A DNA stretch of 31,090 nucleotides from a virus. The stretch is from IMG/VR virus record IMGVR_UViG_3300025168_000389, positions 1-31,090 of that record; one strand, given 5' to 3'. This document shows positions 717 through 9,657 of this stretch, in pieces; the first letter of the stretch is position 1, and each line of letters begins with the position of its first letter. A model generated the notes under the pieces. It saw only the letters and a program-made list of their open reading frames with translations. It ran no database searches and had not been told where the DNA came from. The translations under genes were made by a program, and so were the position numbers.

Positions 717-977
717 GTGGATAGTTTTAATGAACCTATAGAGAGGTTTGGTGACTCAGATCAAGATTTAGAGCTACTAGAGGCTGCTATGAACAATACT
801 TATGAGTATTTAGTAAGCGAAATAGATATGCAAGATTTACCTGAAGGTACTTGGATGCTCAAACGCCCTAGAAGGGTTTCAACTATAGACGAATTAATAG
901 AATATTTTCAGCACCCAGATCGTGAAGAGTATGAAAAGTGTGCCGAACTTACTAAAATAAAACAAACAATAAATTGA
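717..977 (+). CDS. Hypothetical acidic small protein
   Basis: This is an 86-residue acidic protein. The GTG at 717 has no strong ribosome binding site of its own but lies directly after the stop of the micro-ORF, which suits translational coupling; an ATG at 789 is the alternative start. The C-terminal part (TIDELIEYFQHPDREEYEKC and on) resembles the short helical ending of many phage hypothetical proteins with a 'YF...EEYEKCA' pattern. No catalytic motif is seen. The stop codon lies at the edge of the tmRNA acceptor piece, so the gene and the RNA abut or overlap by a few bases. Confidence 0.6.
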   Translation: MDSFNEPIERFGDSDQDLELLEAAMNNTYEYLVSEIDMQDLPEGTWMLKRPRRVSTIDELIEYFQHPDREEYEKCAELTKIKQTIN

Positions 978-1034
978 CCGCTAGTACTTTTATTAGCTGC
1001 TCTTTTGGACGAGGGTTCGAAACCCTCCACCTCC
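975..1034 (+). ncRNA. tmRNA acceptor piece (3' half, placed upstream)
   Basis: Contains the helix 2 3' strand (segments near 975-979, 988-993 and 1000-1005), the GGAC that precedes the T stem in E. coli tmRNA as well, the T arm and the acceptor strand. The discriminator would be A1035. The genomic bases after it are CTA rather than CCA, so CCA would have to be added after cleavage, as is usual for permuted tmRNA. The 5' end is uncertain because it meets the end of the upstream gene. Confidence 0.8.
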
Positions 1035-1053
1035 ACTAAACAATTTACATCAT
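1035..1053 (+). other. Intervening segment between tmRNA halves
   Basis: These 19 bases join the acceptor 3' strand to the acceptor 5' strand. In the precursor they would form the loop closed by the seven-base-pair acceptor stem and be removed by tRNA-type processing (RNase P at the 5' end, 3' trimming plus CCA addition), as inferred for known permuted tmRNA genes. Confidence 0.7.
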
Positions 1054-1190
1054 GGGGGTGACTGGCTTTGACAGAGAGATAAGGATTTAAGGAAGGTCAC
1101 GCATAACAGGCGAACATGTTGAAATGGCAATGGCGGCTTAATTAAGCTCCCAGAACCGAACGGCATTAACAGGGCAAGTCGTATAAGCCC
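1054..1190 (+). ncRNA. tmRNA coding piece (5' half, placed downstream)
   Basis: Starts with GGGGGTGACTGGCTTTGACA, a typical tmRNA 5' end, then the helix 2 5' strand and the tag frame. Only 55 nt separate the 5' end from the resume codon (89 nt in E. coli), so a full pseudoknot 1 does not fit. After the tag stop, GGCTT-AATT-AAGCT can form a helix 5 equivalent around the stop codon, and GGGC (1172-1175) can pair with GCCC (1187-1190), with CCC at 1149-1151 as a possible pseudoknot partner. The 3' end is a guess. Confidence 0.75.
1109..1141 (+). other. tmRNA proteolysis tag frame, GEHVEMAMAA-stop
   Basis: Resume codon GGC at 1109, then GAA CAT GTT GAA ATG GCA ATG GCG GCT and TAA at 1139-1141. 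The end -AMAA matches the hydrophobic/Ala-Ala ending that ClpXP and ClpAP recognise, and the G-E start with -AMAA/-ALAA end is the pattern I know for Bacteroidota tags. Positions -5 and -4 before the resume codon are T and A, as in E. coli (U85, A86). Confidence 0.75.
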
Positions 1191-1960: not shown

Positions 1961-2530
1961 ATGAATTACAAAGAAAACAAACAAGTATTATTAGCGTTAT
2001 TTATCACAATGATAATGATGACAACTACCATATTTACATTTGGTCAGACAACAATTAATCCAGATACTGTATGTGCAAATGCAACAGGTGAGCAGTATTA
2101 TGTTGCAGTCACACCTACATCAACTTATCAATGGACGGTAGCAGGTGGTGGTGGTGTTTTACAGACTGGTCAAACTACAAGTTCTATTACAGTAGATTGG
2201 GGTGGTGTTTCCGGTCTCTACCCTAACGCGGTTGAAGTAATAGAATCCAATGCAGCTGGGTGTCCTGGTATACCACAGCTACTAGATGTATTTATTTTGG
2301 ACCTATCCGGTAATGTTATAGGACCATTTTGCCCAGGTGATCCAACTACACCATTGATAGGGAGTCCTGCAGGAGGGTCATGGTCAGGTACAGGAGTAGT
2401 AGGTAATAATTTCCAACCATCTACAGGTGTTGGTAATTATGTATTAACGTATTCTATGGCTGGATGTAATACAACAATAAATGTAATAGTTAATAATGGA
2501 CCCGTTACTGGTCCAATCCAACATTTTTAA
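1961..2530 (+). CDS. Secreted PKD/Ig-like protein, Bacteroidota type
   Basis: 189 residues. The N-terminus carries an export signal (residues about 8-29, hydrophobic, ending in TFGQ, a common Bacteroidota signal peptide end). A PKD-like beta-sandwich typical of marine Bacteroidota surface proteins follows: VCANATGEQYYV, then YQWTVAGGGG and ITVDWGG (residues about 35-105), then a second Ig-like unit with GSWSGTG and a Gly/Thr-rich composition. It ends in GPIQHF. AAAGGAG lies upstream of the ATG. It is the first of three adjacent exported proteins, probably one operon. It could be a cell-surface protein made during infection or a virion decoration; the signal peptide favours export. Confidence 0.75.
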   Translation: MNYKENKQVLLALFITMIMMTTTIFTFGQTTINPDTVCANATGEQYYVAVTPTSTYQWTVAGGGGVLQTGQTTSSITVDWGGVSGLYPNAVEVIESNAAGCPGIPQLLDVFILDLSGNVIGPFCPGDPTTPLIGSPAGGSWSGTGVVGNNFQPSTGVGNYVLTYSMAGCNTTINVIVNNGPVTGPIQHF

Positions 2531-2531
2531 T

Positions 2532-3062
2532 ATGAGATGGTGGGTATTAATATTATTGCCCTTTCACCTATTAGCTCAAGAGACCTATAACGATTGTGAA
2601 AATATGCAACCACAATCCTATCAAGTAGATTATGATGCTGATAAGAACTATTATTGGTCAATATCTAACGGAGATGTGATTTCTACCTTCAACAATACAA
2701 TTACTGTACAATGGCCTGATAGTGCAGGAGAGTACTTCATTTCAGTTTATACGATGAGATTTGGATGTGAAGGAGATACTTCTCGATATCAAGTGGTTAT
2801 AGATCCTTGCCCTTATGCTACTCTATTTTTTCCAAATTCATTTACTCCTAACGGAGATGGTATAAATGAGCAGTATAGTGTAGGTGGTAGATCGGTAGAT
2901 GATATAGAATATATCGCAATCTATAATAGATGGGGTCAAAGAATATTTGAAGCTAATAGCAACATACCATGGGATGGTAATGATAGCCCTATAGGTATCT
3001 ACACCATAAATGTTTTTATAAAAAATAATAGGTTTGTTAGACCTATAACATTAGTAAGATGA
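2532..3062 (+). CDS. Secreted protein with gliding-motility/T9SS C-terminal domain (CHU_C type)
   Basis: 176 residues from the ATG at 2532, two bases after the previous stop. This start gives a clean signal peptide (MRWWVLILLPFHLLAQ), whereas the in-frame ATG at 2496 would place extra residues before it. Residues about 20-95 repeat the PKD-like pattern of the previous protein (YYWSISNG, TITVQWPDSAGEY, FGCEGDT). Residues about 97-176 match the gliding-motility-associated C-terminal domain: FFPNSFTPNGDGINEQY, then IYNRWGQRIFE, WDGN and IGIYTINVFIK. In Bacteroidota this domain directs type IX secretion (type B sorting). A phage-borne copy implies use of the host's own export system. Confidence 0.85.
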   Translation: MRWWVLILLPFHLLAQETYNDCENMQPQSYQVDYDADKNYYWSISNGDVISTFNNTITVQWPDSAGEYFISVYTMRFGCEGDTSRYQVVIDPCPYATLFFPNSFTPNGDGINEQYSVGGRSVDDIEYIAIYNRWGQRIFEANSNIPWDGNDSPIGIYTINVFIKNNRFVRPITLVR

Positions 3063-3625
3063 AAAAATTAATAATTATATTAGGTTTATTCTTTAACTTA
3101 AATGCTAACTCACAATGCATTAATACTCAGATAGGTAGTATGACTCCTGCTGGACCGTATGCTCCAGGTCAGGTTGTAACTGTTACATATACATTAGGTA
3201 ACTTTACAGGAATTAATATAAACTGGATACATGCATTTCAAATTAATCTATCACCAAGTTGGATCAATCTCACTCCAATAACTACTCCACTTAACCCTAA
3301 TGGATCAACTGGTAATTGGTTATGGGATTTGCAGCATACATTTATTGGTGGTCTAAACTTTGGACCAGGATGGAGATTTGTTAATACATCAGATCCTGAT
3401 TGGGGCACATCATCTCAAGGACCGTTTACAATGAGCTTTCAAGTAACAGTAGGACCTACATGTACTGCTGATAATCTAAATATTAGCATGTTAGTAATAG
3501 ATGATTGTACAACTGGTGGGTGGACTGGAGGTGGTGGAGCCTGTTGTACGGACCCGGCATTTCAAATATACAGCGGAATTGTATCTGTTCCTAGTGTACT
3601 TACAACACCTATAATTCATTATTAA
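3059..3625 (+). CDS. Secreted beta-rich protein
   Basis: 188 residues. Its ATG overlaps the previous stop (ATGA), so it is translationally coupled. The signal peptide is MKKLIIILGLFFNLNANSQ followed by C, which could be a lipoprotein-like or ordinary cleavage end. The mature part is Gly/Thr/Asn/Trp-rich and beta-type, with a TPAGPYAPGQVVTVTYTL strand pair at the start and a Gly-rich, Cys-containing loop (GGWTGGGGACCTDPAF) near the end. It ends in TTPIIHY, like the GPIQHF end of the first protein in the cluster. It looks like a Bacteroidota surface protein; the exact role is unknown. Confidence 0.75.
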   Translation: MKKLIIILGLFFNLNANSQCINTQIGSMTPAGPYAPGQVVTVTYTLGNFTGININWIHAFQINLSPSWINLTPITTPLNPNGSTGNWLWDLQHTFIGGLNFGPGWRFVNTSDPDWGTSSQGPFTMSFQVTVGPTCTADNLNISMLVIDDCTTGGWTGGGGACCTDPAFQIYSGIVSVPSVLTTPIIHY

Positions 3626-3744: not shown

Positions 3745-4158
3745 ATGGGAAATTTAACACCATTCGGCACATCGCCATTCGACGTCCTTTTTAAGGACTT
3801 TTTCAAAGCAGACGTAGATTATCAGTTTGCAGACACAACTAAACTTAACCACCCAGTAGATATATATGAGGCCAGAGATGGACTTAATATAGATATCGCT
3901 TGTGTTGGTTTAACTAAAGAAGATATTGAGCTCACTATTGAGGGAGATGTACTTCGAGTAGAATATAAAAAAGAAGCTGGCCATAACGGGGCAGAATATA
4001 TTCAAAGAAATATAGCTAAACGAGCGTTTAACTTTGGATGGAGAATTAGTAGAAGGTTTGATTTATCAGTACTTGAAGCTAATTTAGAGAACGGTTTACT
4101 TCACTTATATGCACCACTTGCTGATGAAGCTAAACCAAAATCTATAACTATTAAGTAG
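3745..4158 (+). CDS. hsp20: Small heat-shock protein, Hsp20/alpha-crystallin family
   Basis: 137 residues, a normal length for the family. ATP-independent holdase chaperone that binds unfolding proteins as oligomers. The alpha-crystallin domain spans residues about 35-125: PVDIYEARDGLNIDIACVGL, ELTIEGDVLRVEY, and the diagnostic AnLENGLLhLyaP near residues 112-124. The C-terminal I-x-I anchor is present as SITIK. AAGGAG lies before the ATG. Hsp20 genes are common in marine T4-like phages, where they may help virion protein folding or host stress handling. It is probably co-transcribed with the DUF2061 protein from the promoter at 3627-3657. Confidence 0.92.
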   Translation: MGNLTPFGTSPFDVLFKDFFKADVDYQFADTTKLNHPVDIYEARDGLNIDIACVGLTKEDIELTIEGDVLRVEYKKEAGHNGAEYIQRNIAKRAFNFGWRISRRFDLSVLEANLENGLLHLYAPLADEAKPKSITIK

Positions 4159-7086: not shown

Positions 7087-7749
7087 ATGGCTAGTAATAT
7101 ATACGGTAGTTACGAGGAACAAGAATCTAAAGAACCAACTATAACAAGTTCAGCAGAAGAAGAAGTATATTATGAAGATGATTTAGAAAAAAAGCATCTA
7201 TATAAAGAAATTGAATTTGCTGTAGATGTAGACGATAGTGTAGTTTATATGATTGGTGAAATAGAAGATTTTGGTTTATACGATTTTATGGTACGCTGTC
7301 GTGCTATTATTAAGAATAGAGAAGAAGGGGATACCTCACCTATTAATGTTATAATAGATTCAGTAGGTGGTGATGTATATGAGATGTTTGGTATTATCGA
7401 TTATATAGAAAGTTTAGAGAGAAATAGTAATATTAAAGTTAATACTATATGTAGAGGTAAAGCGATGAGTGCAGCTGCAATGATTCTAGCTTGTGGTACA
7501 GGTAAACGTTTAGCTAGCAAGAGATCTACAATTATGATTCATGAAGGCTCATCTATGCAAGCAGGTAAATCATCCGATCTTAAAGCAGCTCATAAATACA
7601 ATGCTCACCTTGAAGATATGGCTAACTCTATTCTAGGTGAAAAAACAATTAAAGATAAAAAATTCTGGTCTGAACAAACAAAGACGGATTTATATTTATC
7701 TTCTAAAGATGCTCAAAAGCTGGGTGTTATTGACGGAATAATACATTAA
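7087..7749 (+). CDS. ClpP-like serine protease
   Basis: 220 residues, the usual ClpP length. ClpP forms a barrel peptidase that, with ClpX or ClpA, degrades tagged proteins. Visible landmarks: the substrate-binding loop DSVGGDV (91-97), the nucleophile region GKAMSAAAMIL with Ser128, MIHEGSS with His152, and KTDLYLSSKDA with Asp201, followed by the usual GVIDGII end. The acidic 40-residue N-terminal extension is unlike housekeeping ClpP. No ATPase partner is in the window. In other phages ClpP-type proteins also serve as capsid maturation proteases, but this gene is not beside capsid genes, so I favour a general or regulatory protease. Confidence 0.88.
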   Translation: MASNIYGSYEEQESKEPTITSSAEEEVYYEDDLEKKHLYKEIEFAVDVDDSVVYMIGEIEDFGLYDFMVRCRAIIKNREEGDTSPINVIIDSVGGDVYEMFGIIDYIESLERNSNIKVNTICRGKAMSAAAMILACGTGKRLASKRSTIMIHEGSSMQAGKSSDLKAAHKYNAHLEDMANSILGEKTIKDKKFWSEQTKTDLYLSSKDAQKLGVIDGIIH

Positions 7750-8580: not shown

Positions 8581-8867
8581 TAATAACAATTATATTACTT
8601 ACGCTAGCTCTCGCTAGCACTCTGTATATTATATATAACCTGTTACGTAAATATGAGCAGGGTGAGGAGTATATAGAAAACCTAGAAACTTGGGTGAGGG
8701 AGTTCTCAAAGACAATTACTGATATGAACAGAGAGATTAAAAAGATAGATAATAAAGGATCGTTTTCATCAGACGATGAAGTAGGTTATTTTTTTAAAGA
8801 ACTTAAAGCAATTATACAAAAATTAGACACACTCGGAGAAGAGGATGATAAATCAAGTAAGCGCTAG
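8577..8867 (+). CDS. Single-pass membrane protein with coiled coil
   Basis: 96 residues, starting on the ATGA of the HD-protein stop. Residues 1-22 form one hydrophobic helix (MIITIILLTLALASTLYIIY). The rest is a charged helical region (YEQGEEYIENLETWVREFSK and on) ending in a highly charged tail. It has the build of small T4-like phage proteins of unknown role located before the late sigma factor gene, with which it overlaps by 23 nt. Function unknown. Confidence 0.65.
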   Translation: MIITIILLTLALASTLYIIYNLLRKYEQGEEYIENLETWVREFSKTITDMNREIKKIDNKGSFSSDDEVGYFFKELKAIIQKLDTLGEEDDKSSKR

Positions 8868-9657
8868 CTTATCACCAGTACAAGAATTTTATAAATGGTA
8901 TGATGAGTTCGAAACAGAACGTAAGGTAACAAAAGCAAAAAAACGGAGAGGGTACTTTCACGAGGAAAATGAGCGTGCTATTATAGCTTACAATAATGAA
9001 CCAGATTATTTTTTGCGTAATAAAGTTTACTCTCAACATATACATAAACCGTTTATGAAACTTACAGAAAATATTATTCATACCTTTAAATTTTATTGTT
9101 TTGACGATCCCTATGTTGATGTACAAGCTGAAGTAGTTGCCTACCTTATAGAGAAAATTGATAAGTTTGATCCAACTAAAGGTTCAAAAGCTTATTCTTA
9201 TTTTAGTATAGTTGCTAAAAATTACTTAATTTATAATAATAACGAAAATTATAAAAAGATGAAGCAACGTACAAGTGTTGATGCTATTGATATTAAGCGT
9301 AATATAACTAATGAGATAGTCCGAGAAGATATAAAAGAAGCCAGAAAAGATTTTACTGATTTAATGGTTGAGTACTGGGATTCAAATCTTAATGTTTTAT
9401 TTACCCGTAAAAAGGATATACGAGTAGCAGCAGCAATAACTGAATTATTCAGACGTAGAGTGAATATAGAAATTTATAATAAGAAAGCTCTATATATTAT
9501 GATACGTGAAATGGCAGATGTTAAGACGCAGTATATAACCAAGGTAGTGAATCAGATGAAGCGTATTTATAAAGAAAAATGGGAAGAATATCAATCTACT
9601 GGTCGATTAGATTATACACCTGTTAGTTCAAGTCAACAAAATTCTAAATATTTCTAA
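8845..9657 (+). CDS. Late-transcription sigma factor, T4 gp55-like
   Basis: 270 residues. A sigma-70 region 2-like segment lies at residues about 90-130: VDVQAEVVAYLIEKIDKFDP followed by TKGSKAYSYFSIVAKNYLI, the pattern of T4 gp55-type and related sigma factors that direct RNA polymerase to late promoters. Downstream parts are helical and basic; no clear region 4 is seen, as in gp55. CGGAGAAGAGG precedes the ATG, and the start overlaps the previous gene. Its placement just before the virion module fits a late-gene activator. T4 late transcription also needs gp33 and the clamp; I cannot identify a gp33 here. Confidence 0.85.
   Translation: MINQVSASLSPVQEFYKWYDEFETERKVTKAKKRRGYFHEENERAIIAYNNEPDYFLRNKVYSQHIHKPFMKLTENIIHTFKFYCFDDPYVDVQAEVVAYLIEKIDKFDPTKGSKAYSYFSIVAKNYLIYNNNENYKKMKQRTSVDAIDIKRNITNEIVREDIKEARKDFTDLMVEYWDSNLNVLFTRKKDIRVAAAITELFRRRVNIEIYNKKALYIMIREMADVKTQYITKVVNQMKRIYKEKWEEYQSTGRLDYTPVSSSQQNSKYF

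Follow-up and report, generated by a model that had tools for sequence, protein, structure and literature searches.

The 31,090-nt stretch of viral DNA analyzed here (IMG/VR record IMGVR_UViG_3300025168_000389, referred to below as the window) carries a circularly permuted tmRNA gene at positions 974-1216 of the + strand, the permuted form being called by both ARAGORN and Rfam. With a probability of about 0.85, we read this gene from its sequence as a working two-piece tmRNA, encoded by the phage, that belongs to a type lacking the pseudoknot PK1. The gene architecture, the covarying structure, the alanine-type acceptor stem and the conserved tag frame are directly established, while we expect by analogy that the gene is expressed, that its RNA is cut into two pieces and that it tags proteins. 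Two-piece tmRNAs have been described from three bacterial groups, some mitochondria and marine phages. A widespread family of phage tmRNAs without PK1, from hosts outside those groups, offers a test of which tmRNA parts trans-translation needs.

ARAGORN calls positions 944-1232 'Permuted' and gives the tag as EHVEMAMAA. The Rfam model RF04321 (tmRNA_permuted) scores 64.1 bits against the window (E 2e-10, spanning 986-1141), above its curated cut-off of 47 bits, whereas the standard model RF00023 reaches only 21.1 of the 47 bits at relaxed thresholds and matches 922-1038 only. With RF00023 below and RF04321 above cut-off, a one-piece tmRNA with its T arm downstream of the tag was rejected. At relaxed thresholds beta_tmRNA gives a partial match (44.2 bits against a cut-off of 84), and among the matches listed no lineage model (RF01849, RF01850 or RF01851) exceeds its own cut-off for the window. 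The original prediction, made from the letters alone, had proposed a permuted, two-piece-type tmRNA on a Bacteroidota phage, and ARAGORN, RF04321 and the host markers discussed below all agree with it; the covariance-model comparison that it called for came out on the permuted side, with no downstream-T-arm form fitting better. A direct reading of the sequence likewise agrees with its placement of the T arm, the acceptor strands and the 19-nt gap between them. Its extent of 970-1190 is too short for the whole feature, since pairing begins at 975 and a possible 3' hairpin runs to 1214. In window coordinates, the features are:

717-977, + strand: upstream ORF of 86 aa with no assigned function (ORF list); homologues adjoin the tmRNA in several related contigs
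974-1035, + strand: acceptor (3') piece, encoded first, with connector strands, T arm, acceptor 3' strand and discriminator A1035 (ARAGORN/RF04321)
975-979, + strand: distal connector helix, 5' strand UGACC, pairing with 1095-1099 GGUCA
987-993, + strand: middle connector helix, 5' strand, pairing with 1085-1091
1000-1005, + strand: proximal connector helix, 5' strand CUCUUU, pairing with 1073-1078 AGAGAG
1011-1027, + strand: T arm, 5-bp stem 1011-1015/1023-1027, loop 1016-1022 UUCGAAA
1028-1034, + strand: acceptor 3' strand CACCUCC, forming seven pairs with 1054-1060 GGGGGUG
1035-1053, + strand: stretch of 19 nt between the acceptor strands, comprising A1035, the positions of the unencoded CCA and the intervening segment
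1054-1200, + strand: coding (5') piece, encoded second, with acceptor 5' strand, D-like segment, connector helix, tag and pseudoknot
1104-1121, + strand: resume-codon hairpin ('helix m'), 1104-1108 pairing with 1117-1121
1109-1141, + strand: tag frame GGC GAA CAT GTT GAA ATG GCA ATG GCG GCT TAA, encoding GEHVEMAMAA and a stop
1132-1151, + strand: stop-codon hairpin (helix 5 type), 1132-1138 pairing with 1145-1151
1160-1190, + strand: single pseudoknot (PK2 type) 3' of the tag, 1160-1164/1178-1182 and 1172-1175/1187-1190
1202-1214, + strand: short 3' hairpin ACCUU-UAU-AAGGU, a weak candidate seen by eye, recurring in some family members whose bases differ yet still complement each other
2496-3062, + strand: protein with a CHU_C type IX secretion signal domain (PF13585, E 2.8e-10)

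The structure was tested on an alignment of 40 distinct related viral sequences, in which seven helices were scored. Paired bases occupy 96.6% of the cells in these helices, compared to 41-50% when the partners are slid by 1-3 columns, and double-sided changes are found in 123 cells, where shuffling gives a mean of 36. Because these same sequences helped to define the structure, the comparison with slid versions leans in its favor, and the count of double-sided changes is the stronger measure. RNAalifold independently proposed most of the structure. Duplex energies of the two pieces, compared with shuffles, were mostly non-significant taken singly, so the case for the structure rests on covariation.

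Every cell of the acceptor stem is paired in the 40 relatives, and the position-5 pair alternates between C-G, U-A and G-C, giving the compensatory variants GGGGGTG/CACCTCC, GGGGATG/CATCTCC and GGGGCTG/CAGCTCC. Further variants, also compensatory, appear in crAss-like phages (GGGGCAT/ATGCTCC and GGGGTTG/CAACTCC). The original prediction had named related phages without such compensatory conservation as evidence against itself; in the relatives examined, the acceptor pairing is conserved. The pair U1032-G1056, which corresponds to the G3-U70 alanine identity pair, is invariant (40/40), as is the T loop across the family; the T stem is paired in all 200 cells from the 40 relatives, and in 9 sequences one of its pairs has changed on both strands. 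The window reads CUA at 1036-1038 and thus does not encode the CCA; across the family the discriminator and positions 74-76 read ACTA in 26, ACAA in 11 and ACCA in 2 of 40 sequences, with one unparsed. The stretch between the acceptor strands is 17-23 nt long in most of the family and poorly conserved in sequence; by comparison with known two-piece tmRNAs, the intervening segment would be expected to be cut out of a precursor. The 5' end of the acceptor piece is a probable position, placed from pairing. The UGA stop of the upstream ORF (975-977) falls within the first connector strand, which suggests that this ORF and the tmRNA share a single precursor transcript.

The acceptor and coding pieces are joined by three helices, each of which covaries. 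The distal helix is paired in 86.5% of cells in the raw alignment, with one pair appearing as C-G, U-A or A-U in 18, 10 and 7 sequences, respectively. Pairing reaches 96.4% in the middle helix, where 4 of 7 pairs show double-sided changes and the window itself has two U-U mismatches, and 93.2% in the proximal helix (double-sided changes in 4 of 6 pairs). A candidate hairpin at 980-997 within the acceptor piece was dropped because it competes with the covarying middle helix.

Within the coding piece, the D-like segment is nearly invariant in the family. Both hairpins that flank the tag have described counterparts in helix m and helix 5 (PMC1168896): the resume-codon hairpin is paired in 99.5% of cells, with a change from U-A to A-U in 5 sequences (the window among these), and the stop-codon hairpin in all cells, with a U-A/C-G swap in 13 sequences. 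All 37 relatives whose pseudoknot was parsed are fully paired in it (stem 1, 185/185 cells; stem 2, 148/148), a count that leaves out three sequences with divergent, unparsed pseudoknots. Stem 2 shows double-sided changes in 42 cells and seven different combinations, whereas shuffles gave at most 130 paired and 24 double-sided cells. The coding piece ends somewhere between about 1191 and 1216, and the hairpin at 1202-1214 could conceivably form that end. A scan near the gene returned six weak promoter sites against 2.7 expected, and no terminator. Most relatives, though not the window, have an AT-rich box (GATATTTATAT) just upstream of the acceptor piece (alignment A1, columns 7-14), possibly a phage promoter on either strand.

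The ten-residue tag is encoded in all 40 sequences, mostly as GE[QH]VE[ML]AMAA, a G-initial tag. ARAGORN starts the tag at GAA in the window and at GGC in most relatives. Codons 7, 9 and 10 have undergone silent changes only, codon 6 is Met or Leu, and codon 8 is always ATG (n=40); the silent-only changes indicate that selection acts on the tag peptide. Two relatives, L068 (8452-8713) and L077 (9927-10189), have a far longer frame past the resume codon and keep the AMAA end. The tags of other Bacteroidota phages end in IAA, IGA, AVA, QFA or EVAA, not ALAA, and a literature search on Bacteroides tag sequences found no paper.

PK1 is found in most tmRNAs, with two exceptions named (PMC1168896), and the coding piece of a two-piece tmRNA typically holds both PK1 and PK2, flanking the tag (PMC3985003). 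The window has the PK2-type pseudoknot after the tag but not PK1: between the connector helix and the resume codon, there are nine nucleotides only (1099 to 1109). Among the copies parsed, the GAC in the D-like segment and the tag lie 36-45 nt apart in Bacteroidota-type phage copies and 58-68 nt apart in alpha-type copies, a count that leaves out L068 and L077, whose long tags had their start misassigned by ARAGORN. So short a segment has no room for PK1, and every parsed Bacteroidota-type phage copy lacks the 25-30 nt in which other two-piece tmRNAs form it. The same short segment occurs in four tRNA-rich contigs (L013, L048, L049 and L059) with the alpha-like tags ANDNFALAA or ADGEFALAA, and the PK1-less trait is thus not confined to G-initial tags. 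What is new here, as judged against the open-access papers searched, is a structural class, the two-piece tmRNA without PK1.

Pattern scans of IMG/VR returned 49 stretches under strict and 56 under relaxed settings, with partial overlap, and about 40 distinct viral contigs carry the same tmRNA type. ARAGORN and RF04321, the latter above its cut-off, also identify the permuted form in five named phages, namely the crAss-like phages cr114_1, cr50_1 and cr10_1 together with Maribacter phage Panino and Chryseobacterium phage MA9V-3, whose genes are labeled 'SsrA/tmRNA' in GenBank with no comment on their form. Given these five annotated phages and some 40 contigs, the window is not the lone case that it had been taken for. 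In many family contigs the neighborhood of the tmRNA has genes in common with the window, and in several of them homologous genes adjoin it, indicating a conserved position. The same baseplate protein was found in 12 of the 15 related viral records tested besides the window (41-61% identity). No permuted tmRNA was seen in Flavobacterium phage immuto or in Microcystis phage Mel-JY01, which are the closest myophages with names.

A covariance model built from the window family was scored on copies outside its seed and on other types. Non-seed members scored 147-155 bits, several other Bacteroidota-type copies 50-80, L013 and L048 68-72, and alpha-type copies 30-50. Three crAss-like copies with long intervening segments reached 18-36 bits, two of them as only partial matches; given these low scores, the crAss-like copies are linked to the family by architecture and spacing, not by sequence. 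In one of these phages, cr114_1 (L006, NC_055897.1), a tRNA-His gene (2042-2114) lies inside the segment between the tmRNA halves; a similar tRNA-Ala case has been called unique (PMC11915505). Matches to RAGATH and hatchet ribozyme families lie near crAss-like tmRNA genes (L009, 1357-1523; L006, 160-288 and 1518-1685; L010, 626-804). Bacteroidota cells may lack the permuted form: the single genome used as a control for this, Bacteroides ihuae, gave an RF00023 match by a lax criterion and none to RF04321. The type pattern matched once among 84,980 species genomes, on a contig assigned to a Pelagibacter MAG whose other sequences include an alpha-type tmRNA. The matching sequence, L083 (CAJQJC010000010.1), is a short contig with a phage-type permuted tmRNA and is probably misbinned phage DNA.

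The host is indicated by other genes. The CHU_C domain (PF13585) is also encoded in five related viral records, the baseplate is Flavobacterium-phage-like, and the nearest named phages include Flavobacterium phages vB_FspM_immuto; together these indicate that the phage infects Bacteroidota. A search for SmpB was negative in 20 phage records, several near genome size and some fragments, and positive in 10 of 10 bacterial control genomes; the phage presumably uses the SmpB of its host. Elsewhere in the window, three proteins encoded in a row at 1961-3625 resemble one another in length and have apparent signal peptides; one has the type IX secretion domain, and all three are likely exported, phage-carried proteins. 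A phage Hsp20-type small heat shock protein (3745-4158) and a ClpP-like head maturation protease (7087-7749) are also encoded, and a sigma-like match within 8845-9657 was set aside as too weak.

The mechanism that we propose is modeled on known two-piece tmRNAs (PMC3985003, PMC11915505); Caulobacter has a functional one (Keiler 2000, cited in PMC3985003). The region would be transcribed, probably jointly with the gene before it; RNase P, along with 3'-end processing, would excise the short segment between the halves, and the host would add CCA. The acceptor stem and the long, interrupted connector helix would keep the two pieces together. Carrying alanine and complexed with host SmpB, they would enter ribosomes stalled on broken mRNA during infection, append Ala and GEHVEMAMAA, and free the ribosome. 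The AMAA end would probably still mark the product for a host protease, which is the least certain step. Efficient function without PK1 is assumed from the conservation of the gene. The phage may carry a tmRNA to replace a host function that fails in infection, or to use a tag of its own.

Two points count against a working tmRNA: PK1, near-universal in described tmRNAs, is missing, and the tag ends in AMAA where ALAA is usual. The tRNA-like half might instead be a decoy that binds host SmpB or AlaRS and blocks trans-translation, as proposed for mycobacteriophage DS6A. One known phage tmRNA consists only of the TLD, and inhibition of tmRNA by a similar molecule has been described (PMC4131195, PMC11915505); a decoy would suit both the missing PK1 and the phage records without SmpB. 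A decoy, however, has no need of a tag frame, hairpins or a pseudoknot, yet the frame, the two hairpins beside the tag and the pseudoknot persist across all or almost all of the 40 relatives, with silent and compensatory changes, making this explanation improbable. Less still can be said for chance pairing, or for a host ssrA fragment left at an integration site, even though phages do integrate in ssrA and partial copies occur. The combination of a T arm and, within the next 60 nt, a 7-bp acceptor partner is present once in the window; random sequences of matched composition contain it 0.07 times each, in no case with five or more G-C acceptor pairs. The full structure also covaries, which rules out both chance and a remnant.

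A quite different possibility grants that the tmRNA works and places its value in the tag, whose products would evade the usual proteolysis of tmRNA-tagged proteins or reach another protease. The AMAA end and the departures from ALAA in other Bacteroidota phages lend this some appeal, but Met for Leu is a mild change, and we consider it a minority prospect beside a working tmRNA whose tag still leads to degradation.

As to origin, we give even odds to transfer of an alphaproteobacterial-type permuted gene, followed by loss of PK1 and rewriting of the tag in phages, as opposed to a new split in a Bacteroidota lineage. Transfer would account for a break position and architecture that are the same as in the RF04321 families, and the tRNA-rich phages that lack the PK1-sized segment yet have alpha-like tags are a possible intermediate. 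On the other hand, the window partially matches beta_tmRNA, with no alpha model among the matches listed, and a tree built from so short an RNA would not resolve. We suggest, tentatively and at somewhat under even odds, that Bacteroidota phages (myophages, crAss-like phages and others) harbor a further two-piece tmRNA lineage, PK1-less and with its own tag, that replaces or supplements the one-piece tmRNA of the host and evolved or was kept in viruses, not cells. The family would make ribosome rescue a viral trait in Bacteroidota phages, gut crAss-like phages included, and its varied natural tags could be used to study degradation; public records call the gene only 'tmRNA'.

The permuted tmRNAs of Alpha- and Betaproteobacteria and Cyanobacteria (RF04321; RF01849, RF01850, RF01851) have in common with the window the connector helix between pieces, the G3-U70 pair and the gene order, which runs from T arm and acceptor 3' strand through a short intervening segment to acceptor 5' strand, tag and pseudoknot. 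Unlike alpha-type copies, the phage type has 36-45 rather than 58-68 nt before the tag, a CCA that is usually unencoded, and a G-initial tag ending in AMAA. The two-piece tmRNAs of marine phages (Melnitz and Pelagibacter phage Mosig; PMC9004378) are likewise permuted and phage-borne, but that of Mosig is of alpha type, with RF01849 above cut-off and a longer pre-tag segment than in the window. In that survey, 53 of 133 unique phage tmRNA structures were two-piece, 50 of these from marine or aquatic samples, and the main text does not mention Bacteroidota phages (PMC9004378). A tmRNA database holds 79 phage sequences (PMC11915505), and the Panino paper mentions a tmRNA but not its form (PMC11590407); among the open-access papers searched, we found none describing a permuted tmRNA in Bacteroidota phages or a two-piece tmRNA without PK1. 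Panino, MA9V-3, cr114_1, cr50_1 and cr10_1 share with the window the permuted form, the short pre-tag segment and compensatory acceptor stems, yet differ in their tags, in intervening segments of up to about 215 nt and, in cr114_1, in the tRNA-His gene. Cellulophaga phages phi40:1 and Calle_1 also infect Bacteroidota and carry a tmRNA, but theirs is one-piece (RF00023, 87 bits) with a 22-residue tag. The permuted phage tmRNA is itself already known, and it is the PK1-less form that is the new variant.
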